From Tribonema minus (lineage: Eukaryota; Sar; Xanthophyceae; Tribonematales; Tribonemataceae), in contig JAFCMP010000065.1 in the NCBI GenBank assembly GCA_017506865.1, positions 248,001 to 312,000 on the forward strand: a stretch of DNA of 64,000 bases. The letters are read 5' to 3'. Every line of letters begins with the position of its first letter. Within the stretch, counting starts at the first letter, position 1. Under the pieces are notes generated by a model, which made no database searches, was not told the DNA's origin, and saw nothing but the letters and a program-made list of their open reading frames with translations. Shown piece after piece: positions 1,148 through 62,015 of this stretch. Both the position numbers and the translations under genes were made by a program.

Positions 1148-4100
1148 TCACACCGACAGCGCCGACTCGGCGTACCGCGTCTGCTTGGCGGCGTCCACAA
1201 ACGCCGCCACCGCGGCCTCCGGCGTCTGCTGCATGACGCCGTGGCCGAGGTTGAGGATGTGGCCGCGCGGGCCGGCGCGCGCGACGCAGTCTTGAACGGC
1301 GGCCCTGATGGCGTCCTCCGACTCGAGCAGGACGTCGGGGTCGACGTTGCCGCTCACGGGGACGTCAGCGCCGAGGCGGCGGCGCGCGTCGTCTGGGGCG
1401 CAGCGGCGCGGGGGTACATGCGTCAGTGAGCGCGCATAATAATGAGACACATGATGAAAACACGTGCACATATGTGATATAAGGCGAAGCTGCGTTGAGC
1501 GCTGTCTGAGATTGAGCGTTCGGGGCGTGGGGGGTGACGTTGCCGCTCACGGGGACGTCCGCACCGAGGCGGCGGCGCGCGTCGTCTGGGGGGGCGGGCG
1601 TGCGCAGCAGCAGCGCAGGAGCACACACGTCAGCGAGCTCGCATGGTGGAATGCATGTACACATATGTAACGTATGATATTTTCACAAGGCGAAGCTGCG
1701 TTGAGCGTTGTCTGAGCGGTCAGGGCGCGGGGGGTGACGTTGCAACTCACGGGGACGCCCGCGCCGAGGCGCCGGCGCGCGTAGTCTGCGGCGCAGGGCA
1801 CACACGTCAGCGAGCTCGCATGATGGAATGCATGTACGCATTGATCGAATTCATGAGGCGGAGCTGCAGTGAGCCCTTCCTGAGCGGCCGGGGCTAGGGG
1901 GGTGACAGCGCTGCTCACGGGGACGTCTTTTTTTGCAGAGGCGGCGGCGCGCGTCGTCTGTGGCGCAGCAGCGTGCAGGGGCACACGCGTCAGCGAGCTC
2001 GCATAATAACGAGAACACGTGTACATGTGTATATAGAAGGCGACTGCGCTGAGCGGGTGATGGTGCCGCTCACGGGGACGTCTGCGCCGAGGCGCAGGTG
2101 CGCGTCGTCTGCGGCGGTGTCGGGCGCAGCAGCGCAAAGCACGCGTGTCACCAGCAAGATTGCACAACATCACAGGCACAGTGAGTGGGCTTGGAGTGTT
2201 GTGCGCTGAGCGCTGGCTGCGTGCGACTGAGGCGTGGCGAGAGATGTCAGGGACGTCCGTGGTGGGGCGCGTGCACGCGTCGTGTGCGGCGCGCGTTACA
2301 GGAGGTGCAAGGATCACACAAGGAGCAAGCATTACATAGGGGGGGAGTGTCAGCGAGAGGGTGTGGAGCCTTGCTGCGCAGAGCACCATCTGATAATAAA
2401 TGCTGCCCACGGGGACACTGGCGCCGAGGCGGCATGCGCACCGGCAAGCGGAAGGGTCACGAGCATGCACAAGGGAGGGGGGCGTCTGCAAGTGGGCACG
2501 GAGCGTTGCTGCGCCAAGCGCCGACTGCATGCGATCAACGCGTGGCAAGAGATGTCAGGGGCGTCCGCGCTGAGGCATCTTCGCGCGTCGTGTGCGACAT
2601 TAGATCATCGTGTCAACGAGAGGGTGTGGAGCGTTGCTGCGCCGAGCGCTGTCTAAAAAAAGTGTTGCTGCACGCGCGGGCTCCAGCGCAGAGGTGGCTG
2701 CATGTGCCGTCTGCGGCGGGCGCGTGCGAAAAAGTGAGAAAAAGTGTTCTGCGCATGTGGAGGAAACGCAAGAGTCACATGAGGGGGAAGCATTGGGAAT
2801 ATGTGTCAGCGAGCGGGTGTGGAGCGTTGCTGCGTCGAGCGCAGTCTAAAACGTTGCCGCGCGCGCGGATTTCGGCGCGGAGGCGGCTGCGAGTGCCATC
2901 TGCAGCGGGCGCGCGCGGAACAGCAAGCGTATGTAAGGTGCACGCACAGGGGGGTCATGTATACACATGTGAATTTAGGTCGAAGCGCGCTGTCTGCGGC
3001 GGGCAACGCGTGAGAGGACAAGTGGCACGCGCATCAGGGGTGGGGGTGAGTACACGGGCATGATAGGTGCTTGAGCACCAGGGGGGGGGCACATGAGTAT
3101 TGGGGGGGGGGGGATGGGGGGGGGGGGGGGGTAAGTAAATGGGTCGGGTCATCGCACCGCGTCAACGTGCATTTGGCAGGAGAAAGTAGGCGCACAACAA
3201 CTATTCAAACGGAGTCGCGGTGACCATCAGCGCGGAAGGGATGCGTTAACGAATGGGTGTTGAGCGGTGCTGCGCCGACCGCTCGCTGTCTGCAAGCAAG
3301 CAGTAGGCGTGTGGGGGGGTGGCATCAGCGCGGTCATCACTCGGGGGCGCGAAAGGCGCAGGGCGCCGGTGGATTACAAATACGTACACCTATGTATGCT
3401 GTAGACACGTTTCGCAGTGGACATGGTATAGTTCGGCAGCATAATGGCGTGTGCTTCACCAGCTCCAAGACGCTTGTTGTTGTTGCACTAGCGAGCAGGT
3501 GCCCGAGAGCTGCGGATTGGCGCGCGCGCATTGCCCCCGTAGAAACATTTCACAATGTGTATATGTTGTGTTTTTATGGCATCGCAGTGCGTGCTCAATC
3601 AGCTCCAGACCGCTTGCTGCCATCCCACGCCAAACAAAGTGCCGTCTCCGTACGATACTCTAAGATGTTATAAATGTAGACTGTAATAGACACATGCGCT
3701 CACGCAAATACCTGCACAAGTAAGGCTGCACTTAACCCGTGATATGCGCAGAGACTGTGTTGAGCGTTGATTACATTAAATTGTTGTATGCTGCCACAAG
3801 GTGTACACTGGTGACCTTTCGCTCTGCGCCAGATGCAAGGCCTGCGATGGCGCATGTGCAATGCCTGACGCCGTATGTGTCAGGTAGGTGTGGTGCGGCT
3901 TGTATGCTGCTCACTAAAAAATGACCCCGGGACTGCATTTCGCACCCAGACACTGTCTCAGGAAAGCAGCAAAGGCAAAAACCTACTTGCCATCACAAAC
4001 TCGCACGCTGTCGCTGTGCAACGCAAAAACTGGCGTCTTCAGTGCGATCCATATTGAGTGCCTGCCACCTATGGTAGTGCTCAACGTATCAAAGCATATG

Positions 4101-7100
4101 AGCTGTCCGCTGTGCAGCAGGGTAAAGTAAATACTTCAAACGTATGTAGCACTGCTACTTTCTGCAGCAGCGCTCGCGACACGCAGAGGCGCGACTGACT
4201 GATCAGCACATGCTGGTCCAGGTCGATCTATTGACAGAAAGACAAACTTCAATTTTTTGTTCAAGTGTGTCTGGAGCCATGCTCGCCCCCCCCCTCACGT
4301 GACTCACAGGTGAACACGTGCTGATGGAGGCCAATTATATCGCACGCTTCAACAATTACTTCAAGTAATTCTCCTCGTTGTAGCAGTATGCATCCTGGCA
4401 CGACTCGCCAACGAGTTCATGCTGGTCAAGACCGAGCATCTCCCACCACAACACATACTTCCATTTGGTATTGAAGTGCTAAACTTCAGGCCGTGACTCA
4501 CCAATCAGCCCGAGCTGGTCGAGGCCGATCATGTCGCACTGCATGCCGCGCATTGACTCCAGATACGCGAAGCCGCCGTTGGCAATTGAGGTGTAAATGA
4601 AACTGCTTTTATTTAGGGTGCGGCCACTGCTAAATTTCAACTGTGACTCACCGATCAGCACGTGCTGGTCGAGGCCAATCATGTTGCACTTCATGCCGCG
4701 CATCGACTCCAGATACGCCGAGCCGCCGTTGGCAAAGTAGATGACGGGCACGCCCGGGTGGCGCTCGCGCACCATGTTCATGGACATCTCCGCGTACGGG
4801 CGCCCCCACTTCTCAAAGTCCGCCACCGTCATGCGGTGCGCCCAGCTCTCAAAGAACTGGATGACCTGCGCGTTCGCGGCACCAAGGAAGCGGCGAGGAC
4901 GCGGTGAGGAGTGCACAGTTGCAGGGAGGAGGTGATGGGGGAACAGGGCTTCTTCAACTATTTCAATGTATCTTTGCGTGCACTTCATCAACGTATCGCA
5001 AGGGGGGGGGGCGCAGCGGATGAAGACTAAAAACTTCCAAGTTTGATTCTGCCTGCTGGCACCAACGAGTAGTTGCAAATGGTGCGTGTGTGATTTGCAG
5101 GGCAATGGGCTGCTGCACGTGTCAATTTCATTCTGAATTAAAGCGCTGACATAGTGCACCTCAGCTTTGCGGCCTGGCTTGATGTTATCAACTGTTGCGC
5201 TGTGGGTTTTCCCCGCACTCTATGCACACATTTTCAGCTGCATTTGAAGGGCACGCACGCTTTGTGCGGTACGCCATGCCATCGCACTATGTTACATAGG
5301 CACATACACCTCTCAGCACTGACCGGCAAATACGCAATACATGTCCATCACAGCTGCAACTAGAACGATACACTGCTCAAGTAGCAGTATTCAGCAGTTC
5401 TGGCTACAAGTGTTCAAAGCCAAAGCACAGTGCTTCCTTGATTCAAATCGTCAAGAGCATCATACCCGGCCAAAAATCCTGCCACCCAGCAAGCAACTTC
5501 AACATCAATGCCCGAGCACTTGAAGAATCTTATTCTCTTTGCGAATACAAAGCTCATCCTCGTCAGCAGAATCAGGACAGCATGCCTGTCAGTTTTCCAA
5601 TGCTCCACCGATACAGGTGAACCCCCTTCTTGAAGATGCACCTCAAGCGCACTACACACCGTGAAGCCCCAAAACCAAGCCATATGGACAAATTGGCCCT
5701 GTAGTTGTGATTCAATACACCTTAATACAGATGGCGTTTTACTAGCTCCCTCACTTTCTTCTTTTTTTGCAATCGTTCTTCAACTATACATTTGCTGCAC
5801 ACGTTCTGTTAGACCGGAAAAGTCGGCGTCATTAGAGAGACGGTTTGGCATACTAAAATGACGAATACTCTTTCTGTCAGTATCACCAATGCGTAAACCC
5901 AAGTCATTGTCGTCCAATTAACGCCATATTTTTCTTCATACCCTTCATTAGTCAGTGTTTCCAAACAGCAAATGTGTACAGTACTGTATGAATATACGCA
6001 ATTTAAAAGCAACAGCTTCCCACACCAGATCACGCGCCGCGCAAGACGCACCCCCCCCCCCCCCCCCCGCCGCCTTCCCCCCCCCCCGCAGGCAGCAGCG
6101 CTCAATACCAACCGCGCTCACTCGCACCTGCGCGCCCTGCTCCGCCTGGCAGCACGCGTAATCCCCCACCCTGACCGCAAGATATATGTATCCACTAAAC
6201 AGGCGCAGATCACCCCCACCCCCCCAACACAACACAACAGCAGCGCTCGGCTCGCACCTGCGCGCCCTGCTCCGCCTGGTAGCACGCATACTCCCCCACG
6301 CTGACGGCGAGCTTGGTCATGTACTCGCCAAAGAGGCGCGGGTCCGCGTCCATCATGGCGCGCATGTGCGGCGCGCGCCCCGCCTCCGCCGGAGCGCTGC
6401 CCTCCATGGCGTACGCGCCCAGCGTCCACGGCGCCCCCACAAAGCCCAGCAGCGTCGCCCCGCCCTCCGTCTCCTTGCGCAGCGCGCGCAGCGTCTGGCC
6501 CACGAACGGCAGCGCGGCGTCGATGTCCACCTGCTCGCCCAGGATCTGCGGGGGGGGGGGGAGTCGTGAGTGTGAGCTGGCGTGAATGAGTGCTGCGTAC
6601 ACTAGGTGCGTTCGGTGGCTGGACCAAATGATCAAGGGGGGAATGGGCTGAAATGAATGTGAGCTGGTGCGAACAAGTGCTGCGTACATCAGGTAGGTGC
6701 GTTCTGTGGCTGGAGAAGATGATCGAATGGGTACTGACTTGAAGGGGGTGCCGGCGGCTACAAGGCGCTGTCGTGAACTTGAAGTACATCACTCCGAGCC
6801 AAGATAACGGGCAGGAGAAGTTCCGCAGAAACATCTTGCAAACGGCTGCAATAATCATGCTCCACGACACATTGGCTGATCAGCAAGACCATCAGGATTG
6901 TTGACAATGAAAACTGCCATCGATGCACCTTGTCAGGGCCTGAGCGCTGCCGCCATGTGGTGAGGGGAGCACTGAAGAGCTCAATGCAGTGACAAAAGAG
7001 GTGAATGCAATATGTGATTTGTGATGGAAACACAGCTGATGTAGCGGCACAACTGTCACTGACCGAAGCGCATGACATGGCAGTGACTTGGGCTGCAAAC

Positions 7101-9108: not shown

Positions 9109-12100
9109 ATGGCTCATGTTGCGGTCACGAGTAAGCGAGCGAGGGATGGCAGGCACACCTGCAGGGCTCCGATAGCGAAGGCTTTGGCCGTGTTGTCTTG
9201 TATGGGCACATTTGTCCATGGTTTCGTCGCTGGGGGCGGAGCGCACATGCTGGCGAGACGGCCCTGCCTCCATGTGCCACAGGTACGCTGGTCGGCATTG
9301 CTGCCTGCAAATTCAAGAGGCCATTTGTCCGATGCGCCGCAGGTGATCGTGGCTAAAAGTGAGAACTCACCGCCTGCAATCTGTTGAAGCTGGCATTGCT
9401 GCGGCGCTCGAGGAAAAATCGGTGTGCTATCTGATCCTCATATTCCCGTTGATCATTTGTCCTTCAAGCTTGAGCACGTGATGTGTGAAGCTCTACCATG
9501 CTCAGTCACCCCTGCAAGTCATCTTTTGCTCAATTCGCGCCTGCTTCACAACAACATTTTTCCTTGCTTTCCAGCGACACTACCATTCCTGTTTTGCCAA
9601 TGCAGTTTGAGACTCGCCACAGCATCTTGTGGCACTTTATTTGGATTTTAGTACTGGCACTCATCCTGCACTGTTGGCGGCATCGACACAGGTGACTTGC
9701 CTATCTTGATGGCGGCCAATGCCAGTGACGTTAGAAGGACATATGCAGCAGCAATGTCAGAGCTACAAGCTCCTGGCATATCGGATCGCCAGATCAGGGA
9801 TCAGGCCAATCAGAATGCGGGCGATTACTATTTGAACCACAATTCCCTGTCTTCACTCACACCCTCATCAGCAGCCCCTCTTCCTCCTCAACTTGTCCGC
9901 ACACCAGCGCTCGTCGGCAGTGACGATGGCAGTCACCATGGCGCCGCCGCCGCTGCAGCCGGGCTCGCGCCGCGCCTCCGCGACGGGCCCGCTGTCGTGG
10001 CACCCTGGCGGCGACGACTCTGAGTTTGTGGACGAGGCGACGTACAGCCAGAAGTGGCGCAAGCGGCGGCTGGAGGAGCTGCTGGCGCACCCCGATCTGC
10101 ACCCGGGCCTCGTGAACGAGCTGCTGGAGCCGGACTACCTGGAGCGGCAGCGGCACGTGCTCAAGCCGGACGAGGTGCGTCTCTGAGGTTCGACAAGTTG
10201 AAGTTGAAGTTCTGGTGTACGCGTGCTGTTGCACCGAGGTCATTCGGGCGCCGTCATCGCGTCGGCAGTGAGCTGTTTTGGAGTTTCCATGTTGGGCCCT
10301 GTACCAAGCTCTGGGTCTGAGAGGCAGCAGCACGTGCTGAGGGCGCTCTGGCCGCTGTGAACTGGTGAAGTATGTACACTGATGTGATGTGAACTTACAG
10401 TGCGTGTGGTCCACCGTTGAAGCTTGTGAAGCGCGCGCACAGTACAGTGGCTGCACCTGGTCGTGTAGAAGGCCTGCGCTCAAGCTGTCCAAAACACACC
10501 GCCCGGCGCTGCAGTGGCTTGTGGAGCCACTGTGCAGACGACGAATTTGTGCACGGCAATGCTGCAAAATGCTGATTGCTGGCGTTGCATAGAGTCTACT
10601 GTAGAGGCCATGTGCAGTGAACTCATGCAGGCACATGCACCAGCACTGTGTCACTTCAACAGAAGGGCATGTGTGTGCCCATCAGCCGCAATAGGAACTG
10701 GATAGTGTCCATCTTATCACTGCGACGTCATGCTTCATGTGCGTCCAATACTGTGTGCGTTATGCACGTGCTGCCTGGCGTCTTTGGTACCTGGTGCACT
10801 GCGTTCCTCTGGGCTTGACGTGCGCCTGATTTGTTTATTCCAGTGGTGTTTGTACATACACGCACTTGGTTTTCCTTTCAAGGCTCAGAGCATCAGTGCT
10901 GGTATTTCAGCGCAAGAACACACTTCCCTAGAGTAACATAGTCAACCTGCGCTTCTGCCTAGCTTTGACGTGCGTGCGCGTCGGCAAAGGCGCAGCTGTG
11001 ACTTGCACAATGCGTCACGCCTGATCGCTGTGCCCATCTGCTATTCACATTCTATTTCTGATGCATTGTCATTGCGCATCAGGCATTTGGCGCCATCTTC
11101 CAGCTGGATGTTCTGACGGATGTGGCGGAGGGACTGCTGCAGCCGGCGTGGGCGGAGGTTGCTAAGGAGTACAAGAAGTCCACGCCGACGGTTGCGGAGT
11201 GCCAGCGCGCGCTTGGCATGCTGCCGGAGACCGCCATCATGCGCGAGTTCAGATGGACGCAGGTGCGGCGAAAGTCCTCTTCTCAGAACTTCAACTGGCC
11301 TGCTTTGACTCGAATTATGTTGAGCTTTGTTCTCTGTATCTTTCGCTGGCATGCTGAGGTGAGGGCGCACCGTTGATGCTGTAGGTCGCGCCTTGTCACG
11401 CCTCAGCGGCGGTGGCTCTCCAGACGTCACCGCGACAGGCGCACATGCCACTGGCATAACTTCAAACGTTGGCTTGGAGTGACGTGCCTGCTGGCTTTTT
11501 CGCCACACTTCACTCGTTTATCATTGGTGTATGGCAATGGGCAGGCTCTGCGATAGCGCCTTCTGCCAGCTCTGCTCGGTGCGCATCAGTCATCGGCGTC
11601 AGCGCACAGACACACTGCCACAAGCCGGGCATCTTCTCACCATCATTATGTGACGGTGCTTAGAAGCATGCCACTCCTCTTTGCGCACCACAGGACTTTG
11701 CTGAGGCTCGGAAGATGAGCATAGCGTTTGCGATGACGCTGCAGGAGGTGGCGGCCAAGGGCGAGTACAGCGCAAAGCCGCTGGTTGGCGTGCTGGCGTG
11801 GCTGGAGAGGCTGCAGGTGCGTACCTACATACCGTGTGCAATGCATGCGCATCAATGTACATGCATGGCACTTCATGGATACCATGCAGTAGGTGGTAGT
11901 CAAGGGTGACTGCAGCTCAAAGCCGCTGGTTGGCGTACTGGCGTGGCTTGAGAGGCTGCAGGTGCGTACCTACATATAGAAACAGGTACCAGTGTTCAAT
12001 TCACGGGTATCAGTGCACCTACGTATCAGTGCCTATACGCTGTTCATATACATGATTGCCAGGTCTTGCCGTGTATTTGGTGTTGTCGCAGTTGAAAGAG

Positions 12101-24500: not shown

Positions 24501-24599
24501 ATTTACGTCAGGGTGACGAAGTGATTTGGCGCTGCAGTGGATGCGCATTGACGCGATCTCGTCCAGATACCCTGATAAGAGTGACACAAGTCTACATGA

Positions 24600-40795: not shown

Positions 40796-41574
40796 CTCAT
40801 GATGAGGGCATGTGTGTATATCGCATGATACACGCTACTCCCATCAAACAGCACTGTTGGAGAGCGCATCGATGTGCCGTCAGTCACTGGTGTCCAAAAC
40901 AGGCTAGTGGCTCCACACCCTAGCCTAACCCTACCACCGATCCTAACCTTAACCCTTGCCCCACCCTTGACCCTGATGCAACTCATGGAAGTGCTGAGCA
41001 GCAGCCCATGCTTTCACCATCAGCAGCATGCCTGGCACATGAGCATCATATGGCACCCGTCCACTCATTTGGAACACTCGCGCACTAATTCAGCGGTGTA
41101 TCCCAATGCTCGTTGCCACTCGCAGAAGGTGCACTCCATCCATTGGTTCATTCATTCATTAATGCATCCATCCAGTAGTTCATTCAGCTATCACGTCCAT
41201 CTGCAGGGCACACGCGCGCGCACCAGCGCTCACCTTGCACAGCAGCTGGAACAGCGCGTCCCCATCATCCCCCGCGACAGGCTCGGCACGGCCGTCACCG
41301 CGGGACTGCCACCAGCAGCAGCGCTCAAAAACGCTGCCGCCGGCATGCCCTCCACGTGACACAGCTCAGCGGTGCCGCCGCAGCGTGCAGTGTCGCCGCC
41401 AGTCTGGGAGGCGCTACGCGGACTGGATGGTGCGTCGGCGTTGCCGCTGCCGGGCTGGCGCAGCAACGAGATGGCGGCGCGCTGCGCGGTGTCTGCGGAG
41501 GAGTTGCCGTTGTGCGCCGCGCTGCTGTGCCGGCGCACCTGCAGTGCACAGGTGGCGAGTGCGTGAGTTGAATG

Positions 41575-41775
41575 ACTGGGTGAGTTGAGGGGGTGAGTGA
41601 ATTTTTTGGGATGTGTGAGGGACTTGCCATCGCGCGCCGCGCTGATGTGAGGCCGCCGCACCTGCGCGGAGCGGTTGATGAGTGAGTTGAGTGAATGGGT
41701 GAGTGAGTGAGTCATGGAGTGAGTGAAGAAGTTGCCATCGTGCGCCGCGCTGCTGTGCCGCCGCACCTGCGAGTA
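41575..41775 (-). repeat. Echoes of PDE exon 7 acceptor edge (left arm)
   Basis: Two copies of GTGCGGCGGCACAGCAGCGC-like sequence with the CAG acceptor, at about 41628-41675 and 41735-41770, separated by GAGT-rich repeats. The right arm has one comparable echo near 53969. Confidence 0.85.
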
Positions 41776-46450: not shown

Positions 46451-46796
46451 ACTCGTATATACCAGGTCATAATGGTTTGAAAAGCGATCATGTGAGGCGT
46501 GGCGTGCAAGTATGCATATATGTTATGACACAAGTATCTGGCATGTAAGACGACTTGTCACGAGCAGCACTCAAAGTCAAGACCGACGTGGTGCCAGGGG
46601 GGGGCACATGGACGAGGACGTAGGGGGGCATCTCGAGATGCCATTTGGTGGCGTCGTTTGAGTGGTTGTCATCGAGACACTTTCAGACTGGCACTCGACA
46701 TATAGATTCCGTACCGCAAGCTTAGATACCATTCATCTGTGCTTTTTCGCACCCTGAGAAAGAATCAATAAAAAGTACGTATGGACTTATATTTAT

Positions 46797-48325: not shown

Positions 48326-51300
48326 ATGGGGGGGCGCACGGCGCCTACGATGGCCACTCACAGGTAAGTGATTGGAGTCACGGTCTGTCGCCTTGGGCGT
48401 GTGAGCCTGGCACCAGGGGTAATAATGCCTGGTTGGCTTCACGTACGACTCAAGAGAGTGATAGTCATTGCAAATCTTTGAGGCAGGCAGCATGCACAAC
48501 GGCCACCGCTTGCCATTCACGAGCAGGTAAAGAAAATGTTGCTTACACGCTCAAGCAACACCACCACCAACTTCTTGCCAAGCTGGTGAACACAACCATT
48601 CCTCTACAGACGTGCAGTCGCCTGCTGGAGCATCCTATGCAGACAGCACCGGCAGCATCACGCCGCTTGGAGTTGAACCTGAACCGCTGATGGTGAAGTT
48701 GCTGGACATTGCTGGACACTGTTACAAAAACGACACTGTGAGCACTGATGATGCATGCTGATCTACGGCAAGGCACCGTCACGTGCAAACACGGAACCTG
48801 CATTCCGAAGCGGTGCACACACTCCACGTCAGAAGCGCGCTGGTGAAAAGTCAAAGCTGCAGTTGCCAACAACAGCGTATACGTAAGTCTGTCAGCTTCC
48901 GTGATTTGGGCTGATCACTTGTGGGGCTAACAACGCCCTGAACGCGAGTTCGATTTCTACGGGAAGCACAATGTGAACAGTACAAATTAACTAGCTTCAG
49001 CAACCTATAAAAAGATCGCTTTATACCACAACGCCCCCCCCGGCCGCAGGCTGAGCCTGAAGGACATTGCGCCCATGGTCGCCGCCGCGGTCAAGACGCG
49101 CAGCAACAACCACAGCGGCTCCGGCCCCCCTACGCACCCCGGCGCGCGTGCGGACCTGCACAACTGGAGCAGCGGCGACGCCAACTTCAACAACTCCAGC
49201 ATGGGGCACGAGAGGGGGGCGAGCCGGTCCATGGGGGGGGGTGCGCAGCCGCCTAGCGGGGGGCGCAGGGGGAGCTTCCAGGGGAGGAACGCCATGCCGC
49301 GCACGCGGTCCGCGGCGCGGCGCTTTGAGACGATACCCATCGAGAAGCCGGACAATGAGACGTGAGTAGTGGCTGCATGTGTGTGCATTGTGCGTACGTG
49401 GCTGCTCGTCATCGAGTCAAACATATGGTTTGCGGTATATGTAGGGAGAGTCGCTGTATGCAGGGATGGCTACCGGTACCGGTGATGCCCCATTGGTGTT
49501 GCGTGTCATATGCCATGCTGTTGGCCGTGTCGCTTTGAAGCGATGCATGGCCGCCTGTCGAGTGGCCGAACAACGAGGCGGGAGCGGAGCACTGACTGAT
49601 GGTGTTAACCCTAAGCCTATCCTGATGCTGCGACCGCGTTGATGTTAGCAACTGCTTGGAGCTGCTGTCTGATTTGGCTTTCATTGGCGTTATTCACGTG
49701 TTTGGCAGGCACAAACGTGCCACGCAATAGGTGTGCTGGCAGCATGACTCTTTGGCTTGGATGAATGGTCACAAAACACAGCAGCCCGCAGAAGAGAAAA
49801 CACACACATAGTGCTCTTGCAGTGATGGTCGGTCGCAACAACGGACCCCCCCTTGCGCACACTCGCGATTCCCCCCCATCACCTGCAACCCGTTTGCCGC
49901 ATCCGACGCCCCTCTACGCTGATTCACATCACAATCTCATAATCGCAGATTCATGACAAAAGTTGGTTGTAACAAGCCATCACCTGACGCCCTGAGCACT
50001 GCTGCACCATGTCAGTGCTCGGCGCCACGGGCGGATCCCCCTCTCAGCCCCTGTCATTCATGCTCACGCCCCCCGCACCTCCACTTGTTGACTCGTTGAC
50101 TCGAACTCGACTCAGACTCATGGAAGACTCGCGGGTGGCGCTGGAGTCCTGGTGGCTGAACGCTGTCGTCCTGCTAGCGGCGGGTGCGGCGGTGGCGCTG
50201 GCGGTGCTGCTGTATGTGAGGGGGGAGGGGGGTCCAAACACCAATCTGGGGGACCCGCTGCGGGCGGCACAGGTGGGCAAATAGTGTACTTCAAGTGCAT
50301 ACTTCAAGCTCGCAGTTGCTTTGAAAGCATCGAATACATCCTCTAAGCGGAGGTATACTTTGAAACAATGAGTGGTACATCCGAAAAATGGCGTTGTTGT
50401 GACCTACGTACGCAGTTGATGTTCACACATGGCAGCTTTGTATGCTACAGAAGGTATACTTCTTAAAAGGCATACTGAAGGCTTTGTTCGTTTAGCAGTC
50501 AAGTTGTGCTGACTTCTGCGCATGTGAAGGCCAGTGACAGGTGCACCAATATTGACCGACCGTCTGTTACATGCGCCAATGGGAAAGGCGGTGCGCTGCA
50601 TGCAGCTTATGAATTAAGCAGCAAAAGTTGGCATTTGACACTAGTTCCAGGTTTCACATAGCAAGGCAGGCCTGGCGTAATCACATATCCAGCCACGATG
50701 ACATCAGTGGCGATGGACTCAGTACACCACTTCCGCGCGTACATGGGTGTACCGCATGTGAAAATCTCACTACTTGCACGACATTGATGTCATTCAAGAC
50801 TTCAAAAGTCAGAAGTGATGGTCAATGGTACAGGGACACATTGTCAAAAGGTTCATGTAGATTCTGCTACTGAGCTTGACATCAGCCAGCCCTGTGTTTT
50901 TTGGGCGCCCTGAGTGAGAACAACATGCAAGTATGTATCTGGATTCAATTTTTTTCTGGGCAACACGCTTCCCGTAACAAAACGTCAAACGCTGCAGCTA
51001 TGGTAAACTCTTACGGTGGAGCAATCACAGAGTTTGCGGCCCACGCATGCGCTGCTATCGCAACATGGATATATCGCGTCAGCAGAGATGCTTGTAGCGT
51101 AACATATGGTGTGACTGTGGCGAGGGAAGGTGAGCGTCAAGAATCCGGTGACCCTAATTCTGACCTTAGGGCAAGAGGCTGGGCACAGCGCTCGGCTTTG
51201 CATACGTGACACAGCGCCCACAACACCTGGCATCCGCACCAGCGCAGGTGCTGCACACTGTGGAATGCCCGTGGATCGCCTCTGCGCGCACTTCAAGTGC

Positions 51301-54300
51301 GTTGTGTTGACGTCCAGCTCAACAGGTTGAGCGCCGCTGCCGTGCGTGTGTGTCCACGCACTCGCAGGTGGCCATCGCGTCGTGCTTCCTGGCAGAGCTG
51401 GTGGTGCGACTGCGCGCGTTCGGCCTGAGCTACTTCAGCGAGTGGTTCAAGGTGCGCATTGTTGAAGTTATCATGATCGAACCTGTCATCCTGAAGTTGA
51501 CTTTCCTGCTGTTGGTTGTGCTGAACTTGCTGCTTGAGCCCATATCAGTGGCTTTCAAATTGCCTGAAAGTCCTCATATGGAGCTTGACAGCGGCTGCAT
51601 CCGTGATATGCTGCAGCAACCTTAGTGTTGCGCGTTGTTGCAGGCGTGGTGACGTGTCACAGCCAGTGCGTCAAAGAGGTTCTGAGCGCTGTGTTGGTGG
51701 CGTTGAGGCGTGCTGTGTTGGCGTGAACCTGGCACTAACTGTGTGAAGCGTTGTGCACTCTCAGCTGACCTGTTTCAGCTTCCGTCCTTGTCCCTTTCTC
51801 AACGCAATGCATCCAATGCCTGTGTCCGTCTCCTGCTGCCTCTCTCTGTCTACCGTACCTTCTCTCTGTTTGCCCTTCCAAATCTAGGTCCTGGACTCTT
51901 TTGTTATTGTTTCCGCCTTTTCGCTGGTCTTCCTCACACCGGCGGCGGGCTTGGTGTGCTTCGGCCGGATTGCAAGGGTACTTGGGCCGCTGATGACGTG
52001 GATCCACCCCCCCGAAGTGCTAGAAACGGTACGCAATCTGAAGTGTCTGGTTGACTTCTTTGCGAGTGTGACATTGCGCGTCAGAGTTGCTGAGCACTGC
52101 TGCACACTCGTGTGCACGCGGCACGTCGGATTGCAATCTGAACATGTACATACATACTCCGAAGTATACCGTTGGATTGCGGTCTGAAGTTGTGCATGTG
52201 ACATACTTCGGAGTATAGCATTCACTGAGATGGCCGGCACACGGCTCAAGTCATCTCTCGACATACAGAGGGGGGGGGGGGGGCTGCTGCCCCCCTGCCA
52301 AGAAGTGTGTGGGCCTTGGAAACCGGTACTTGAAAGAATGTGTGGCGTTTTTTGAACTTCAAGTTCAAGTGCAAAGACGCGCCTGGCAGCACATGTGCGC
52401 CCCTAGTAATCATGTGACACTTTTATCGCGTCATCGCTGCACAGTAGCAAGCGCACAAGGCCCCCGCAGTGGTGTTGTACCGCCGCGCACGAATCAGTAC
52501 TTTAACTTCAACTCCAATGCAACAAACGCACCCGGCAGCACAGCGCACTTTTGATAATCTGTGCTGCCTCAAACTCACCATTACCACGCAGGAGCAAGCA
52601 TGCGAGGCCCCCGCGGTGGCGCTGTACTGCTGGAGCGCACAATTCAGTACTTCAGCTTCAAGTTTAATGCGGGCAGCCACTGCACCCGTGATAATCTGCG
52701 CTGCCTCGAACTCGCCATTACCACGCAGGAGAAAGCATACAAGGCCCCCGCTGCGGCGCTGTACCGCCTGCTGGCGCGCACGGTCCTGTACTGCAACTTT
52801 TATTTGAAGTATGGCATATTGTGCGCCTGGTGGCGCAGTGCAACCCTGATAGTGTGTGCTGCCTCGCACCCAATGCCATTGCTGCGCAGGAGCAAGCGTA
52901 CGAGGCCCCTGCGGTGGCGCAATGTAAAGACGCGCCTGGCACAATGCGCCCCTAACACGCTGCCTCGCACCCGCCATTGTTGCTGTGCAGGAGCAAGCAT
53001 ATGAGGCCCCCGCAGTGGCGCTGTACCGCCTGCTGGCACGCACGATCAAGAGCAGCTGCAGCGTCTTCACCGTCACCGAAAAGAACGCGCTGCGTGACCT
53101 CATGTTCCTCCTGGCGCACCACCAGATCTACGTCGACATGGACATGCAGCGCGCCAACGCCGCGTACTGGAAGGAGTACGGGTCACGCCAGGTGACGTTT
53201 GTCAACCCTTGACCCTACAGCTTCAACGTAGATGACTTTTGTGTGCTTGGTTTGTGATCAGCTTCGTGCTGTCATGTAGGGAAGTTCGCGTGTGGCCTTG
53301 TGGAGGGATATGCTTTTGCTCAGGTGCAGGCTTTGCTCACCAGCTGGTACTATACCGTGATAACAGTGAACAGGGGGGGGGGGGGGGGGGAAGGGGGGGG
53401 GGGGGGGGGGCTAGTCAATCTAGTCTCCCATGCACCCCTCTATCCATTGGCAGAAGCGCAGAAACATCATTTTCAGGGATTGTCACAACTCCACGCTCGG
53501 AGTCGTTGCTGACTTTGCTCCGACTCCGCTGTGACCGGAGCAGAGTCGTAATTGTTTGAGCCGTCTGATTGCTCCTTGAAGTCAGATTTGGAGTCGGTCA
53601 ACGATTGATGCCCGCTCCCCGAATCGGAGGCAGAGCCGTTCAGCGCACGAGTCACAGTTCCGCAGAGCAGAGTCAGAGACGTTCAGGTGTTGTGGAGTCA
53701 CAATAATCCCTGATTATTTTTGGTAAGTGGCGTGGCAACTGGTATGGCCGGTCAATTATCAACTGTCAATATGGGCCGCGCACCCGTGCTGACGCTCCAT
53801 TTGCAGCACAACTTCAATATGTAACTTCAAGAGACAGGAGGGCACAAATAGACTGCGCGCCTTCAAGGGGCGGATCAGCAGGGCCAGCAAGGCGGACCCG
53901 CCCCACTCATTCACTCACTCGCTTACTCACCCGGTCACTCAAATTACTCCCTTTGAGCTGATGCGCAGGTGCGGCGGCACAGCAGCGCGGCGCATGACGG
54001 CAACTCCTCCGCAGACGCCAATGACTCACTCACTGACTCACTCACTCACTCAACCACTCACCTACTCAACTCACTCACTCACTCACCACTCACACACAGG
54101 TGCGGCGGCACAGCAGCGCGGCGCACGACGGCAATTCCTCGGCGGACGCCGCACAGCGCGCCGCCATCTCGCTGCTGCGCCAGCCCGGCAGCCGCACCGC
54201 CGACGCACCATGCAGCCCTCGCAGTGCCTCTGGCGGCGACACTGCACGCGGTGGCGGCACCGCTGAGCTGTGCCACGTAGAGGGGATGCCGGCGGCAGCG

Positions 54301-57300
54301 TTTGTGAGCGCTGCTGCGGGGGGCAGTCCGCATGCGGTGACGGCCGTGCCGAGCCCTGTCGCGGGGGATGACGGGGACGCGCTGTTCCAGCTGCTCTGCA
54401 AGGTGAGCGCTGGCGCGCGTGCGCCCTGTAGATGGACGGATGAGTGAATGATTTAGCGGATGCGTTGATGGATCACTTCCTGTGCATGGACGAATGATCG
54501 GCCGAGGTGCACAGAGGCGCGAATGACTGTACAACGTGCGACTTTTATCAATGAACGAATGAATGAACGGTCGTCCGTAATACTTTTGTGCCCAGCCTGC
54601 TGTGAATCGGTGACGCAAGGAATTAAAGGTATGTTAGAGGTGACAACTGGTACATGCATACACGTGATGTGTACTCCTAGTACATACCCACACGCCGATA
54701 TCGAGCGCGTTCATGCGCCCAAGCCCATCAGAGAGTTTCTGAGAGGGATCTCCTTCAAGAGGGATAACCTTTCAAGCGGGATCCCCTGCTACTGGGCGAG
54801 CTGCGCCGCAGCGTCTCGCCTGTGAATCTTATACCACTGTGCATACCTGCCCAAAGGCTCACGCTGAGCGTTGTGATGGCGTGCAGGTCGACGAGTGGGA
54901 CTTTGACGCGTTCCTGCTGGATGAGCTGAGCCGTGGGCACCCCCTGGTCAGCCTGTGCAGCTACCTGTTTGACGAGCACAAGTACAACCTATTTGCGCAC
55001 TTCGGCTTCAGCAAGCGGCACTTCACCAACTACATTGTGCAGGTGAGGCACGCCGTACCCTCTGTGTACATTGTCTATGTGCACATATGACTCAGAATTA
55101 CAAGTACAAGTGCGTATGGGTCACAGGCACTGCATCTGGCACTGCAGCACTGCAAGTTATGCGAGCGAGGTTCAGAGTGCGAACCAAGTAGTGATATCTT
55201 CCCTCTGCTGCATATCATGAGTCTGCACAAACTCCCAGCCCAGATACTTTGAGGTCACTGCAGGCCCCAATGCATGCGTGTGCCACGTTGCTGCCCATGG
55301 CAAGTGTGCCATCTGTCCAGTGCCTAGCGTGCATTGAGCACAAGCTGCGTTCACCGCGAATTGGCCTTGAGCAGTTACTAAGGTCAGGGACAACGGGTAG
55401 AAAGACGGCCAGGGTGATGGATACAGTACTTGCATTGTCATGCGAGTAATTTCAGCATGTTGAGCACTGCTACCTACTTGCCTGCGTGGCAGCCTTGCTG
55501 ATCGCAGAGGCGTGCGTCTTGCAAGCTGCCATGCGCCCTGTTGTATCATGCCTACATACCCTGCTAACGCTGCTGAGCTCTGCTGCAACAGATCGAGGCG
55601 GGCTACGGCAGTGGCCTCAGCAAGGGCTCCGTGAACATACCCTCTGTATGTATCATACCTACATACCCTGCTGACTCTGCTGAGCGCTGCTGCAACAGAT
55701 CGAGGCGGGCTACGGCAGCGGCCTCGGCAAGGGCTCCGTGAACGTGTACCACAACCGCAGGCACGCGGCGGACGTCACGCAGGCGGTGCACTACTTCATG
55801 CAGGTACGGGGGCTGTATAATGTAGAAGTGCGTGTACTTTGGAAGTATATAGAAGTATAGAGAGCATGTGTGTACATACCACAATCGCCGGTCTGTGAAG
55901 GATCGCACACAGGCGGTGCACTGCTCGATGCGAGTGACCGGGCGAGCACTGCGCGCACGCGCATCGTGCACGTGGAGTCTGCTGTGTTGCTCATGGTGTA
56001 CCTGCCGTAACAGTTCACTTGGTTGACAGGCATGTGTGAAGCGTCAGTCTGTCAAGAGCGCACAAAGTGACAGTTACTTCAGAGCATATACATCTGTTTT
56101 TGGTGTGGAGGTCGTGCTGAATGGTTGCTCATGGTGCACCTAACTGCCGTGACCGTGCTCTGCGTGAGTATGCTCCACATGAGTATGCACTGCATGTGCC
56201 ATCTGAGCAGCTCATTTGCAGACACTGAGGTGATGCAGCCTTCCATTCAAAATCTCTCGAGTTCTTCGGCCTGCTCATCTGCTAGAGCAGCATCAGACTA
56301 CTACGTCGGAAGATACTCCCGGAGCACAGTGCTCAGCAAAGCTTAAATTGCTTGCTGATACAGGAGCTGACGTGCACCCCTCTGCCTGCAGGTCTGCCAC
56401 CTGGGCGCATCACTGACGGACATTGAGATGATCAGCCTTCTGCTGGGTGCCATTGTCCACGACTTCAAGCACCCCGGCCGCAGGTGAGTGCTGAGCACTG
56501 CTTCCATTTTTGCGCAGCCGATTTTTTTTGTGAAAGCGTCTATAACACTCAGTCATTTCATTCCTTAGCACATCGGCGGCGTCTGTGACAACGCTGGTCA
56601 CAAAGTGCGACTGCTGCAGCTGACAGCACCAAATTCCAATCAAGCACCCTGAGCACAACTGCATGCTGAGCAGTGCGGCATTGTTATTATATACGTCTAT
56701 AAAGTATAGCGGCGAGCTCAATGCATACGTTCACGTCCTGTCAATACCAACAACCACCACACGTGTAGCTGTGCGCCAGAGCACTGAGTTTGCCGAAGTA
56801 TGCACCAGAATGCAACTTGAAGCTCGTGTCGCACCTCAGAATTCTGGCGCCCCGATCGCTGGCCACAATCGTCACCACTGCAGTGAACAAGCTGTATCCG
56901 AAGCGATTTGTTGGCCGCTCACCAATTGCACACAGGATTGACGAAGACTTTGAAAGCAGCGATGATCCATACCACAACTGGGCACAAGTCAAGGTTCATG
57001 CACCGCTGCAAGTCTGCGTGGAATATGTTTTTTGAAGTAATTATAATTTATCACCAGCCTCCGTGCGGCTATGGTGCAGGGGCGACTTGAGTGTGTTGGG
57101 GCCATGTACTGACGCGGCAGCGCTCTTTAACGCCCACATCTCAGCAACTTCAAAGCTTTTAGCCACTTGGCTGTCGCAGAAAATGGGATTCGTAGCACGT
57201 TGGTTGTGCAATGCATGTTGTGGGCAGCATCATCAGCATGTGACACTCCTGCTTTTGGTGTGACGCTCCTGCTTTTGGTGTGACGCTCCTGCTTTTGATG

Positions 57301-60300
57301 TGGCACTCCTGCTCTTAGTGTGACACTCCTGCTCTTGATGTGACGCTCCTGCTGTTGGTGTGACGCTCCTGCTTTTGATGTGAAGCTCCTGCTTTTGATG
57401 TGACACTCCTGCTCTTGATGTGACGCTCCTACATTGAAATCCTTGACTGCTCAAATATACTGACACCCGCTGTGTTTCGTCACGCATGTACCGCGCAGCA
57501 ACGCGTTCTTGATCAAGACATTCTCTGAGCTGTCGCTCGTCTACAACGACGTCAGCGTGTTGGAGAACTTCCACATCAGCGAGGTACCGTATTTGAAGAC
57601 GTCAATAACCTATGTCGTTGCAAGAGTACTTTGTATGGTGTAATATCAGGAAGCTGAAGACGTCCACACACATGTATGGTGTAATATCAGGAAGCTGAAG
57701 ACGTCCACACACAAATGTATACACACAAAAGGAGCCATGTAAATGAAATTGATGTGTCTCCAAAGGGAAACCTTGAGGTCCATACTTCATTGATGTACTC
57801 CACCAGACGTGCACAAAAAGGAGGAATATTTAGACTGACCAGGCAGTGCGATCATTTGCAGTTCTTTTTAAGGTGAAATTGCATGCTCCCTTCAGCATGC
57901 TGGAGTAGTTCCTGCTGTTTGTACTCGGAAAGCGTAGTATGGACTGCACATGTTGCAATACAGTGTGGTGGCATGGATGCACACATGCATCAGCAGCCAC
58001 AGCTGTGATCATAGCTAACGGCTGCTCGTATGCTGTATGCACACCCTGTGACAGGGCTGGTGCCTATCCTGTCACTGTGCATTGCGACGGATCTCACCCC
58101 CCCTACGCCTGCCATCTTATTGTGGTCACAACCGTACCATTTTGCCACGGTGTGATTGATCACATTTGCCAGAAGTAGGATGGTGATGCTCAGTCATGCT
58201 GCTCCCTTGCGCAGTTGGTGCTCCTACTGTAATCTCATGCGCAATGAGCACGCTACTCCTAACCCATGCCCCTAAATTTCTCTGTGCCCATACCCCTAAC
58301 CCTACGCCTTACTCAATAACCCATTTGCGTATTTACCCCAATGCGAACTCTCAATGTGTGCGCACGCCTTCCTTGTCCGGCAACACTTCATGTAGCATCA
58401 TGCACAATGTGCGCCCCGCACCTTGCCCACTCATCTGCACGATTCTAACCCTCACTTTAACGCTACTTCTGCATGCAGGCCTTCCGTGTTCTGCGGCAAG
58501 ATCGCTGCAACTTCATGCGCAATGTGGACCCCGCTACCGTACGCAGCATCAGGGACACCATGATACCGCTGGTGCTGGCGACAGACTTGAAGTTCCACTT
58601 TGACCTCCTGGGGGAGTTCAACTCGCACCTCACCGACATGCGCACGGAGATTGGAGAGGAGAGGTCAGTTCAAATATTACTTGAATTATCACAGTTCCAG
58701 GGTGGCAGCAGCTGGGTGACCATGGTTCAACCACTGCTGCCATTGCCGCCATTCTCTTTGCTTGCGCGTTTGTCTGACTGTTGTTGCGCCGTGTGCACTG
58801 TAGCGCCATGCGTGTACTAGGTATGCATGGACACGAAAGGGCTCAGAGTGCTGTGGAACTGCTCAGACGAAGTGCCGACCTCTCAGTGCAGCTGTAACCT
58901 CAAGCGGTGACGCACCCCTACCTTGTGTTTGTCTGTGTATGTAACGCATATTGAACTGCATTTATGTGACGCGTATTAAACTGCATTTCAAGAGTCGCAG
59001 ATATTGCGGCTCACCCTTGCAGTCTTGCAAACCTCAACAGGCTAGCAAGGCACACGATCACCATTTGCCGCATTGTTTGCATCACAGACAAACACTGGCC
59101 TATAGCTGGAAGCAGCACCAGCCGATTGCTCTCCATTGTGTTGCCTTGCTTGCTGCATGCGCCGTGCCACCCGCCATGCTCCACGGCATCCTTGCTGTTG
59201 CATTGCAAATTCTATTCTATGGCCGCGATGCAACAACAGCTGATGCGTGGCTTGCACTTGCCCACCTACGATCTGGCCTGCTCGATGCACGCACCATGCC
59301 GCCGCATTGCGCACCTGTGCCAAGCCTCCACAATTTGTCCACGCTGTGAATTCAATTCTGCGGGAATGTGACAACGCCAGCTCATGGCTCACTCAAGCCT
59401 CTGTTTTGCTGCTCTGTGCATGCGCGCTTTTGCAGCAAGACGCGCACGTACATGTCTGCCATGAAGATCTGCATGAAGAGCGCAGACATCAGTCACCCCA
59501 CGCGACCCATGTTCCTGCACCTTCAGTGGACAAAGGTGGGTCAGCGATGCACGAGTTCTGGTCGTCATCACGGGTGTGCGATTGAGCTCTACGACCAGCA
59601 TACTCTATGCCCAATGAGGGTCTGGCTGTAATCTGCACTGCCTCAGTCACGGACAGCTCAAACATCGGCTGTGTTTTGCACATACCCCCCCCCCCTTCCC
59701 ATGTGTATGTTACACTGCACTGTTGAACTCGAGAGCAATCGTTGAGGCTTTGCTTATTCAAAGTGTAAGCTACCCTGTGCACGCAATGTTGCTGTCACCT
59801 GATGCTTGACGTTGGCAACAGGCAGGGACTAAGCGTGCCAGCCGTTAGGCGCAGAAGATGGCCTGCTCACAGCCCACAACCATGCAACAGCTGTGCTGCG
59901 CCAATATTTGCATGACACGTAGGGATTGCACGAAAGCATGATTGGCCACACCAATACGGCGTATTTTGGGGCGTATTTGGCAACCAGGAATATGTCTTGA
60001 GCAAACATAAACATGATCAGATGCTGCGCGAAAGGCGTATTTGTGGGGCATGCGGTGAGTCTGCTCGATTCCAAGCATACAGTCAACTACAAAAGGGGCA
60101 CTTGAACTCAGTATTGCTTCACAATTCGCTTTTGTGCAACCCCAATGACATGTCTATTCTGGCATACACTGCACCGGAATGGCGTTTGCTGCGACATCAC
60201 TCCAAGGTGACCACTTCAAGTATGCTGCGCGGCTACTGCAAAGATAAATGCATTGTACATCTGTCCTTGTTTACAAGGTACGCTAATGCGATGCGTCTGC

Positions 60301-62015
60301 GCTACAAGGGGCACTTGAGTGATGAGCATCACCACCTTTCTCACCTGCATGATGAGCGCCATCACTTGCATTTGTGTTGAGCATCGCCACCCCTCTCACC
60401 TGCGCGCCCAGGGTGCAATGCCGCCGCCAATGATTGTAACTGGTGTCCTTCGTAGCCTGTATGCATCACACTTGTCTATTTGCTGCCTTGCCGCAGGCCG
60501 TAATTGAAGAGTTTTTCCTGCAAGGGGACGAGGAGAAGCGCAGGGGGTTGGAGGTGAGAGGGTGGATCGCACATGAGAAACAATTCCCGTACTGTGTGAA
60601 GTGTTTTCCTTGAAGTATGTTTACTTGTCACAATTACCTTCAAACCTGCAAGTGATCTTTTTCAGTCAGCAGATCATCACATCACAGATGCGCTCAGCAT
60701 ACATTGCCCTTGTACTACATATGCTTTGAGCTCAAGCCGTGCGCAGGAGCTTTGGGTACACCCACGATAGCAGGTTGCCAGAGCGTGGGTAGCATTCATC
60801 GAGTGCAACATCAACTTCGCACGCCTGGTTGAACCCTTAAAGCTGGCCTTCGACACAGAAGTGTCCAATGTCGCGTCATGTGACCCATGTCGCCCCTGTA
60901 TATGCTGACACACACTGTCGTACCGCCATGTGCAGATAAGCCCACTGATGGACAGGGACACAACGGCCATTGCGGACTCTCAGAAGGGCTTCATCAACTT
61001 CCTGGTCAAGCCGCTCTTCAAGAGCTGGGTCAGCTTCCTCAACACGCCTGAGGCCCAGACGTGCCTCACCAACCTGGAGGTATGTAGATTACGCACATAC
61101 GTCGTACAATATCTCAATGAACTGAACAGCACATGTAGAAGCAGCACATGTAAAACATATTGTACGTGGAGCCCTCCAGCCAGCTCCGCTCAACCATCAT
61201 ACTGGTGGCCAATTTACTTAAGGCACAGCAGAGTATAGTGTTACCATGTCCCATGTGCGTATGCGTCACCAATAGCAATGGCAATTCACTCTGGCAGATC
61301 GTCCATGATACCATCATGACCATCAGCCCATGGCCCTCAATTGACACGCCCCGGTGCATCGGCCAGCTGCGACGCACTCCCTTCATCCGTGCGCCCTATG
61401 GCACTTCTGCTTCGATATGGCAAGTGCCCACGCAAGATGATGTAGCAACAGACAGCATACTCCCCCTCTTCCCCGCTCCTGCCTCCGCAACTTGACTTCT
61501 GGTCTAAACCTATCTCGCGCGCCGTGTCCCAGGTCAACGAGGCCATGTGGGTGGCCAAGGAGAAGCGCGGCGACGACACCCTAGAGGCACTGGTACCCGA
61601 CCCCCCTTCCACGCGCTCAAGCACGGGGGCACGCACCAGCATGCCCGCAGGCGGCGCCGCTGAAGCTGCTGCCGCCATCGCTGCCGCCGGTGCCGCCGCT
61701 GCAAATGGCACAGCTGGTGCCGCGGGGGGCACTGCAGCGGCGGCGGCGGCGGCGGCAACGCACCCGCAGCAGCATGCGCCGCCGCAGCAGCAGCAGCGGC
61801 AGCGCTCGGGTGGCGCTGAGCACTGCATCATTGACGTGGCGGGTGGCGGGGAAGAGGAGTCGTCGGCGGTCCTGCCGTTCTCTGAGCGGCAGCGCAGCAG
61901 CAGCGGCGGCAGCGGCGGCGGCGCCGCGCACGTGCAGCTGCAGCTGCCGCCGGCGGAGCGGCATTGGAGTGGCAGCGGCGCGACGGAGGCGCCGGAAGGG
62001 CCCATGGAAGTGTAG
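48326..62015 (+). CDS. Voltage-sensor-like domain fused to class I cyclic-nucleotide phosphodiesterase (16 exons)
   Basis: Exons: 48326-48363, 49050-49361, 50116-50272, 51368-51451, 51888-52028, 52991-53191, 54100-54402, 54887-55042, 55699-55803, 56392-56483, 57499-57583, 58479-58663, 59436-59535, 60497-60553, 60936-61079, 61533-62015; 880 aa with all phases agreeing. It should hydrolyse cAMP and/or cGMP at a membrane. Residues 1-120: polar, disordered. S1 about 131-151 (NAVVLLAAGAAVALAVLLYV); S2 170-188 with acidic FLAEL, then LSYFSEWFKVLDSF (typical S2-S3 link with the S3 Asp); S4 with only two spaced Arg (GRIARVLGPL, about 225). No pore helices. PDE domain about 413-720: YHNRRHAADVTQ (481-492), HDFKHPG (522-528), ATDLKFH (592-598), ADISHP (636-641), invariant Gln688. 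Tail rich in Ala, Gln and Gly. The start ATG is uncertain: the frame is open from 48101. Confidence 0.85.
52446..52990 (+). repeat. Echo array of VSD-PDE exon 6 acceptor edge (4 units)
   Basis: The start of exon 6 (GAGCAAGCATATGAGGCCCC, real start 52991) is preceded by four copies at about 52446, 52593, 52730 and 52889, about 100-160 bases apart. The three nearer ones keep a CAG acceptor just before GAGCAAGC or GAGAAAGC, and most continue through LYRLLART before turning into intron. Several could be used as alternative acceptors. Confidence 0.92.
53373..53410. repeat. Double poly-G tract in VSD-PDE intron 6
   Basis: Two runs of 18 G split by AA. A strand this G-rich could form quadruplexes in DNA or pre-mRNA. 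Confidence 0.9.
53967..54012 (+). repeat. Echo of VSD-PDE exon 7 acceptor edge (right arm)
   Basis: GCAG followed by GTGCGGCGGCACAGCAGCGC repeats the start of exon 7 about 130 bases upstream of the real acceptor at 54099, with an intact CAG. It encodes RRHSSAAHDGNSSAD like the exon. Confidence 0.9.
55588..55632 (+). repeat. Echo of VSD-PDE exon 9 acceptor edge (right arm only)
   Basis: CTGCAACAGATCGAGGCGGG and the following bases copy the first 45 bases of exon 9 about 110 bases upstream of the real start at 55699; the TACATACCCTGCT intron text before it is copied as well. The left arm has only one such segment, so this echo arose after the duplication. Confidence 0.92.
55868..55945 (+). repeat. 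Echo of VSD-PDE exon 9 donor edge (shared with left arm)
   Basis: TACCACAATCGCCGGTCTGT and ACACAGGCGGTGCACTGC decayed from the end of exon 9. The match at 39365-39450 in the other arm shows that it predates the inverted duplication. Confidence 0.82.
56150..56245 (+). repeat. Echo of VSD-PDE exon 10 acceptor edge (shared with left arm)
   Basis: GTGCCATCTGAGCAGCTCAT followed by GACACTGAGGTGATGCAGCC is a decayed version of the start of exon 10. The left arm has a counterpart near 39070-39160. Confidence 0.65.
57233..57432 (+). repeat. Minisatellite, about 20-bp unit (right arm)
   Basis: Ten units of TGTGACGCTCCTGCTTTTGA with small variation, directly tandem and without spacers, about 65 bases upstream of exon 11. 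It is shared with the left arm. It is not a CRISPR array. Confidence 0.93.
57638..57720 (+). repeat. 40-bp tandem duplication after exon 11
   Basis: TGTATGGTGTAATATCAGGA followed by AGCTGAAGACGTCCACACAC occurs twice without change, about 55 bases after the exon 11 donor. Confidence 0.92.
58190..58478 (+). repeat. Echoes of VSD-PDE exon 12 acceptor edge with telomere-like text
   Basis: Decayed copies of the start of exon 12 lie near 58225-58250 (TAATCTCATGCGCAATGAGC) and 58365-58420 (GCCTTCCTTGTCCGGCAACA). CCCTAAC-like motifs fill the intervals (58265-58310 and 58440-58452). The left arm has the same order at 36600-36860. Confidence 0.75.

Follow-up and report, generated by a model that had tools for sequence, protein, structure and literature searches.

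Serial tandem duplications spanning exon-intron junctions in a 64-kb window of the Tribonema minus genome

This work describes a series of tandem duplications of differing age that span exon-intron junctions in 64,000 nucleotides of intron-rich eukaryotic DNA from Tribonema minus (the whole stretch analyzed, referred to here as the window). At 14 of 56 independent junctions (75 junctions if both paralogs of the PDE gene are counted), a copy of the exon edge, its splice site, and the adjoining intron lies head-to-tail inside the intron; these copies are referred to here as echoes. Junctions are over-represented among the tandem duplications of this window, and the filters that we modeled do not fully account for that concentration. 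The explanation toward which we lean, with modest confidence, is that serial tandem duplications of 107 to 196 bp spanning exon-intron junctions arise at a raised rate at or near the junctions and that duplications internal to exons are purged. Neither the copying step, which is known, nor the confinement to introns is unusual; the concentration at junctions is the new part.

Gene models and survey of duplications

Gene models were built by hand, with splice sites displayed by script (Table 1). UROD was identified by a search of the PDB. Pfam returned PDEase_I and Ion_trans on PDE-B, HAD_2 on HAD, and Rubis-subs-bind on SET, where the SET domain itself scored slightly below the curated cutoff. 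PDE-A and PDE-B form an inverted pair (33.3 to 41.8 kb and 53.9 to 62.1 kb) whose well-aligned introns are 75 to 82% identical. The two paralogs have splice positions in common, with or without echoes; UROD, HAD, and SET are without an outgroup here.

Comparison of the window with itself gave 48 direct pairs at an E value of 1e-3, 43 of which lie within 2 kb. When 37 introns, each extended by at most 90 bp into the adjacent exons, were scanned with greater sensitivity, 432 matches were obtained (at most 5 per probe), of which 6 were discarded as low complexity; comparison of each probe with one nonhomologous intron instead gave 2. The 31 grouped components yielded 18 junction-linked rows and then 14 loci, after two rows for PDE-A exon 9 were merged and the second-paralog echoes at the exon-7 donor, exon-8 donor, and exon-10 acceptor were not recounted. 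The scanned introns did not include the PDE-A exon-5 array, which entered the count via PDE-B. Under a strict rule demanding 8 bp on each side of the junction, 11 of the 14 loci passed, the PDE exon-7 donor, exon-8 acceptor, and exon-9 donor being borderline.

Intron-only duplications with a period of at least 80 bp numbered four (UROD 3403, 7005, and 6543; PDE-B 55972). Two minisatellites (PDE-A 37803 and PDE-B 57238) were set aside, as were seven loci with periods below 80 bp (SET 16191, 20389, and 21570; PDE-B 52124, 57632, and 60319; PDE-A 34996). Counting all periods gives 13 nonjunction loci instead of 4, though short units are seldom able to span a junction. Across nine scan settings, a script counted 11 to 15 junctions versus 2 to 7 intron-only loci, some of the latter being fragments of junction loci. 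Two calls differ between the script and the hand count: UROD 6543, which abuts the exon-3 acceptor, is intron-only by hand and an edge by script, and PDE-A 39388, where the exon copy begins 2 bp inside, is an exon-7 donor edge by hand and intron-only by script. The 23 kb outside the gene models, which may contain unmodeled exons, held no locus at 80 to 200 bp; the two loci there have periods of 266 and 407 bp.

Table 1. Gene models and echoes in the window
Feature	Location	Strand	Remarks
UROD		-	5 exons; single intact ORF
HAD		+	7 exons
SET		+	6 exons; model uncertain at both ends
PDE-B	50120-62015	+	14-exon model; one intact ORF
PDE-A	33391-41538	-	Inverted paralog of PDE-B exons 5-14; outgroup role
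UROD exon 5 (last exon)	1148-1392	-	Conserved anchor of longest array; splice site and intact 5-exon ORF
UROD exon 5 acceptor side, ~9 echoes	1523-2924	-	~115-200 bp apart; exon-part identity 0.90 to 0.70
UROD exon 4 (4652-4865) donor side, 3 echoes	4193-4585	-	
UROD exon 3 (6258-6545) donor-side echo	6076-6211	-	Period 129
HAD exon 3 (11694-11816) donor-side echo	11885-11976	+	Period 145; stop in exon frame
SET exon 5 (21691-21849) donor side, 4 echoes	21951-22555	+	Period 145 for first two, then longer
PDE-B exon 4 (52991-53191) acceptor side, 4 echoes	52436-52926	+	
PDE-B exon 5 (54100-54402) acceptor-side echo	53966-54019	+	
PDE-B exon 7 (55699-55803) acceptor-side echo	55530-55636	+	Period ~107; 91-bp insertion; not found in PDE-A
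PDE-B exon 7 donor-side echo	55877-55942	+	Present in PDE-A too; borderline by strict 8-bp spanning rule
PDE-B exon 8 (56392-56483) acceptor-side echo	56190-56243	+	Borderline by strict rule; not found in PDE-A
PDE-B exon 8 donor-side echo	56640-56676	+	Present in PDE-A too
PDE-B exon 10 (58479-58663) acceptor-side echo	58362-58429	+	Present in PDE-A too
PDE-A exon 5 (41234-41538) acceptor side, 2 echoes	41620-41774	-	
PDE-A exon 6 (40182-40337) acceptor side, 4 echoes	40397-40804	-	Not found in PDE-B
PDE-A exon 7 (39518-39622) donor-side echo	39388-39442	-	
PDE-A exon 8 (38835-38926) donor-side echo	38639-38676	-	
PDE-A exon 9 (37655-37739) donor-side echo region	37375-37526	-	109-bp insertion; not found in PDE-B
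PDE-A exon 10 (36384-36566) acceptor-side echoes	36610-36820	-	

Composition of the echo loci

The 14 loci comprise UROD exon 3 donor, exon 4 donor, and exon 5 acceptor; HAD exon 3 donor; SET exon 5 donor; and, in the PDE genes, the acceptors of exons 4, 5, 6, 7, 8, and 10 and the donors of exons 7, 8, and 9. An earlier reading of the sequence alone (the sequence-only reading) had named several of these. The scan recovered its echoes at UROD exons 3, 4, and 5 and SET exon 5; its HAD exon 4 appears here as HAD exon 3, which we assume to be the same echo under a different exon number. Its PDE exons 6 to 10 and 12 would correspond to our exons 4 to 8 and 10 if it counted two extra 5′ exons, which is a guess, and exon 9 is added here; the echoes it placed in one PDE gene are present but are spread over two. 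In all 14 loci the echoes sit inside the intron, on the acceptor or the donor side, as it had described, and the two sides are equally affected (7 of 38 acceptors and 7 of 37 donors). Best-pair periods of 107 to 196 bp likewise agree with the spacing of about 100 to 200 bases that it had given.

Since the copies run head-to-tail with a period that includes the intron part, they are simple tandem duplications; the SET exon 5 units, for instance, repeat at 145 bp with 94% matches and those of PDE-B exon 7 at ∼107 bp with 93%. The intron part is heavily eroded in older loci. The PDE-B exon 8 acceptor echo scored 22 against a shuffled maximum of 15, and the PDE-A exon 9 donor echo is borderline, its direct alignment at the edge covering only 7 exon bases. 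Together, the echo loci occupy ∼6.4 kb of the ∼33 kb of intron (about a fifth), bearing out the suggestion that echoes lengthen introns.

Two familiar classes of repeat do not describe these loci. Whole-exon duplication, including mutually exclusive exons, is rejected, as each of the 14 loci holds one edge with 36 to 88 bp of exon. Micro- and minisatellites have units of 1 to 60 bp, which the periods above exceed.

Exon edges were also compared with other segments, a check that the sequence-only reading had proposed. A score of at least 40 was reached by 13 of 75 exon edges versus 2 of 42 mid-exon windows, one of these two being a simple-sequence coding stretch and the other lying within the HAD echo unit. 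Mid-intron windows reached that score in 56 of 449 cases, of which 47 are themselves echo copies and 9 lie outside echo loci.

Gradients and relative ages

In 6 of 6 arrays with at least two echoes, one of which has just two, identity of the exon part declines with distance from the exon (permutation P = 1.5e-4; P = 0.0018 leaving out UROD exon 5). The claim that similarity drops steadily away from the exon thus holds for the exon part; measured as local identity over the whole probe, the trend vanishes in PDE-B exon 4 and runs the other way in PDE-A exon 5 (0.80 near, 0.90 far). Growth by a strict ladder, in which copies form only at the junction, is contradicted by the UROD exon 5 array, where echoes 5 and 7 match each other at 79% and the exon at 58% and 66%. 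Since these two echoes are closer to each other than to the exon, copying has also taken place far from it. The graded look of the arrays may come from selection holding the exon copy in place as the echoes drift.

For the PDE genes, the exon-part divergence of each echo was scaled to the split of the paralogs. The exon-7 acceptor echo (PDE-B only) dates to 0.28 of the split and the exon-6 echo (PDE-A only) to 0.34, and the exon-7 donor, exon-8 donor, and exon-10 acceptor echoes, all present in both paralogs, date to 1.7 to 2.0. This clock fits five of seven PDE loci, in that young echoes occur in one paralog and old echoes in both. Two loci do not fit: the PDE-B exon-8 acceptor echo dates to 1.87 and was not found in PDE-A (score of 11, equal to the shuffled 95th percentile), and the exon-5 echo dates to 0.51 in PDE-B versus 1.19 in PDE-A, with echoes in both. 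The exon-9 echo, found in PDE-A only, was left out of the dating.

Excess at junctions relative to chance and detection bias

Enumeration of random placements gave a mean probability of landing on a junction of 0.214 under the 8-bp rule and 0.24 for any overlap. Against the looser null, 14 of 18 duplications at junctions corresponds to P = 2.1e-6, and the strict count of 11 of 18 to P = 2.8e-4, both before detection bias; because the window was selected for showing the pattern, these and the following P values are no independent test.

The strongest competitor to a raised rate, which we nevertheless regard as unlikely, is that duplications are spread evenly, selection removes those internal to exons, and junction copies only look commoner through being easier to see. 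Constraint on the exon copy should keep junction echoes visible for longer. We simulated this effect with rates taken from the PDE paralogs (difference of 0.18 to 0.25 for well-aligned intron and 0.07 for exon, with ∼0.1 gap per substitution). Junction and intron-only duplications were detected equally well up to t = 0.1 and almost equally at t = 0.15 (58/58 versus 113/120), after which detection diverged to 57/60 versus 89/120 at t = 0.2, 45/66 versus 25/120 at t = 0.25, and 20/63 versus 6/120 at t = 0.3. High age therefore favors junction copies, and several of the observed loci are that old. Integrated over age, the detection ratio was 1.30. For the strict count, P is 0.0015, 0.021, 0.12, and 0.47 as the bias odds rise through 1.27, 2, 3, and 5, and for the looser count it is 2e-5, 8e-4, 0.011, and 0.11; significance is lost at odds of 3 for the former and 5 for the latter.

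The young duplications, for which detection is near equal, argue against visibility as the whole cause. In this subset, eight duplications (all strict) lie at junctions versus one that is intron-only (P = 2.4e-5; P = 0.0011 at two-fold bias), with cutoffs that were chosen after the data had been inspected (exon-part identity of at least 0.85; intron-only identity of at least 0.78). PDE-A exon 9 (7 exon bases) and SET 21570 (77%, period 57) were excluded from it.

Position of the junction within the unit

A second, rather improbable alternative is that exon bodies, being GC- and CpG-rich and transcribed, are the mutational target and that only events overhanging into the intron survive selection. 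Consistent with this, exon CpG is higher at the 14 echo junctions than at 57 others (0.113 versus 0.075, P = 0.014), exon GC tends upward (P = 0.06), and acceptors and donors are affected alike. Introns are also longer at echo junctions (P = 0.004), perhaps as a consequence of the echoes. These P values come from six tests and are uncorrected. A GC step across the junction was rejected as the cause, echo and other junctions being alike (P = 0.25).

Targeting of exon bodies predicts units that are mostly exon; however, the exon share averages 0.45 and reaches at most 0.72, which is not decisive at n = 14. With a standard deviation of 0.148, the share is distributed more narrowly than a uniform range of 0.06 to 0.88 (P = 0.005), a soft result, since the breakpoints of old copies are uncertain. 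The midunit position of the junction mildly favors a junction-centered process over exon-body targeting.

The window also holds intron-only tandem duplications with units of 41 to 87 bp that start or stop no more than about 50 bp from an exon edge (20392-20501, 21570-21688, 6543-6743, and 57632-57713). They hint that the neighborhood of a junction may favor duplication even where no exon sequence is included.

Fate of the echo splice sites

The sequence-only reading had further proposed that echoes create alternative splice sites. Among 38 echo windows, the splice dinucleotide could be aligned in 37 (paralogous copies included) and was kept in 28 versus 26.1 expected from exon divergence (P = 0.30). 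Splice dinucleotides of echoes are thus lost at about the neutral rate, and function as alternative splice sites, for which retention beyond neutral was sought, is not supported. Maintenance of echoes as decoy or alternative splice cassettes is accordingly very improbable: AG or GT is still present in most young echoes, but at a neutral level, and the exon frame of the HAD echo is interrupted by a stop.

That echoes are mobile elements, introner-like or otherwise, that bring exon edges with them is hardly credible: a TACCTACATACC-type motif does recur near acceptors in several introns, but the echo units lie head-to-tail next to their own exon, distant direct matches within the window at an E value of 1e-4 are low-complexity or PDE-tail repeats, and inverted matches are low complexity, the PDE pair, or one other pair. 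Near-identical sequence across introns of unrelated genes, as expected of introner elements, was not found in this window, and window-wide matches do not support the shared motif as a mobile element.

Proposed mechanism and relation to known systems

We return to the reading that we favor, serial duplication at a raised rate around junctions. Duplications may arise where closely spaced breaks or nicks are repaired by fill-in and end joining. From the second copy onward, unequal exchange or renewed tandem duplication could extend the array. Exon-internal duplications would alter the protein and be purged; a duplication across a junction would do no harm, since the copy next to the exon body still offers a functional splice site and splicing removes the other. 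Confinement to introns would then follow from selection against duplications that change coding sequence. On top of this selective filter, the event rate would be higher at and around exon-intron junctions. A broader version, which we hold only tentatively and think doubtful as it stands, is that in this algal lineage junctions are long-lasting, recurrent hot spots for splice-site-centered tandem duplications of 100 to 200 bp, with a junction-linked cause, and that these are a main engine of intron growth. Candidate causes of such hot spots might include chromatin phasing, polymerase pausing, and RNA-DNA hybrids at splice sites.

To our knowledge, the lengthening of introns without mobile elements is poorly understood. 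If junction hot spots are real, a mutational bias acting locally would account for intron growth and for a stock of spare splice sites, and dated events with which to test that bias are available in the inverted PDE pair. The junction concentration, so far tested only in a window flagged for the pattern, merits a genome-wide test.

The following comparisons draw on titles, abstracts, or excerpts of the papers cited. The sequence-only reading knew of no named process; head-to-tail units of this kind are known as tandem genomic duplication, which these excerpts treat as an established way of gaining introns (PMC4974935, PMC3443670). The potato RdRp gene, like the loci here, underwent a short in-gene tandem duplication of an intron-exon segment, and it carries another 83-bp duplication within an intron (PMC4974935). 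There, however, a new intron was made and exon sequence inserted, whereas echoes enlarge an existing intron with no new intron inferred; in addition, many junctions are affected here in one window, one of them duplicated about nine times. Novel intron positions arising via tandem duplication in Drosophila are the subject, by its title, of PMC2891723. As excerpted, PMC8355091 reports that fill-in of breaks with complementary overhangs gives small tandem duplications in mouse and human cells; head-to-tail duplications from nearby opposite-strand nicks would be a plausible maker of echo units, although those described follow induced breaks, mostly have small units, and appear in text that mentions no preference for splice junctions. 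In Lipomyces stwintrons, according to the excerpt, the donor is thought to have been duplicated, with the copy in the intron and break repair proposed, but those duplications are 4 to 7 nt long and help make a nested intron, in contrast to echoes of 107 to 196 bp that include exon (PMC7138796). The Tetrahymena LRR genes show serial exon-plus-intron units in younger and older cohorts, as echoes do; there, the excerpt indicates, whole 90-bp exons are multiplied, whereas here only exon edges are (PMC6564038). Amoebophrya introners, per the available text, have 3- to 5-nt direct repeats at exon-intron boundaries (PMC7789003).

A junction preference for duplications of 100 to 200 bp is not described in the excerpts of PMC4974935, PMC3443670, PMC8355091, PMC7138796, PMC6564038, and PMC7789003. 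Among the matches listed in a search of titles and opening parts of abstracts, which covered few subscription journals, none concerned tandem duplication concentrated at existing exon-intron junctions.

Additional features of the window

Searches of viral contigs with the PDE and UROD proteins and of prokaryote genomes with the PDE protein gave no confirmed relative, and nothing in Rfam reached gathering scores. The UROD presequence contains AAAFAP, which we take to suggest a secondary red plastid. In PDE-B (50120-62015), an Ion_trans-like membrane segment is fused to the PDEase_I domain. PDE-A is without exons 1 to 4; its exons 5 and 10 are shifted in length, and exons 11, 12, and 14 each contain one stop. 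Its differences from PDE-B over 568 codons are mostly synonymous (75 versus 35 nonsynonymous), so PDE-A looks recently broken or missequenced. SET intron 4 apparently uses a GC donor at 21259-21260.

Several repeats occur besides the echoes. A 20-bp minisatellite occupies the same intron of both PDE paralogs (37802-37980 and 57238-57430), and a second inverted pair (23570-25700 and 45172-46778, 73 to 84% identical) is distinct from the PDE fold-back. Motifs of the TACCTACATACC type lie near exon edges, for example, at 17888-17915, 39654-39667, and 55654-55667. The motif GGTATGTA/TACATACC occurs 19 times versus 0.8 expected, some occurrences being donor sites or echo copies; 17 of the 19 are intronic, with a median distance to an edge of 39.5 bp versus 226.5 bp for intron positions.
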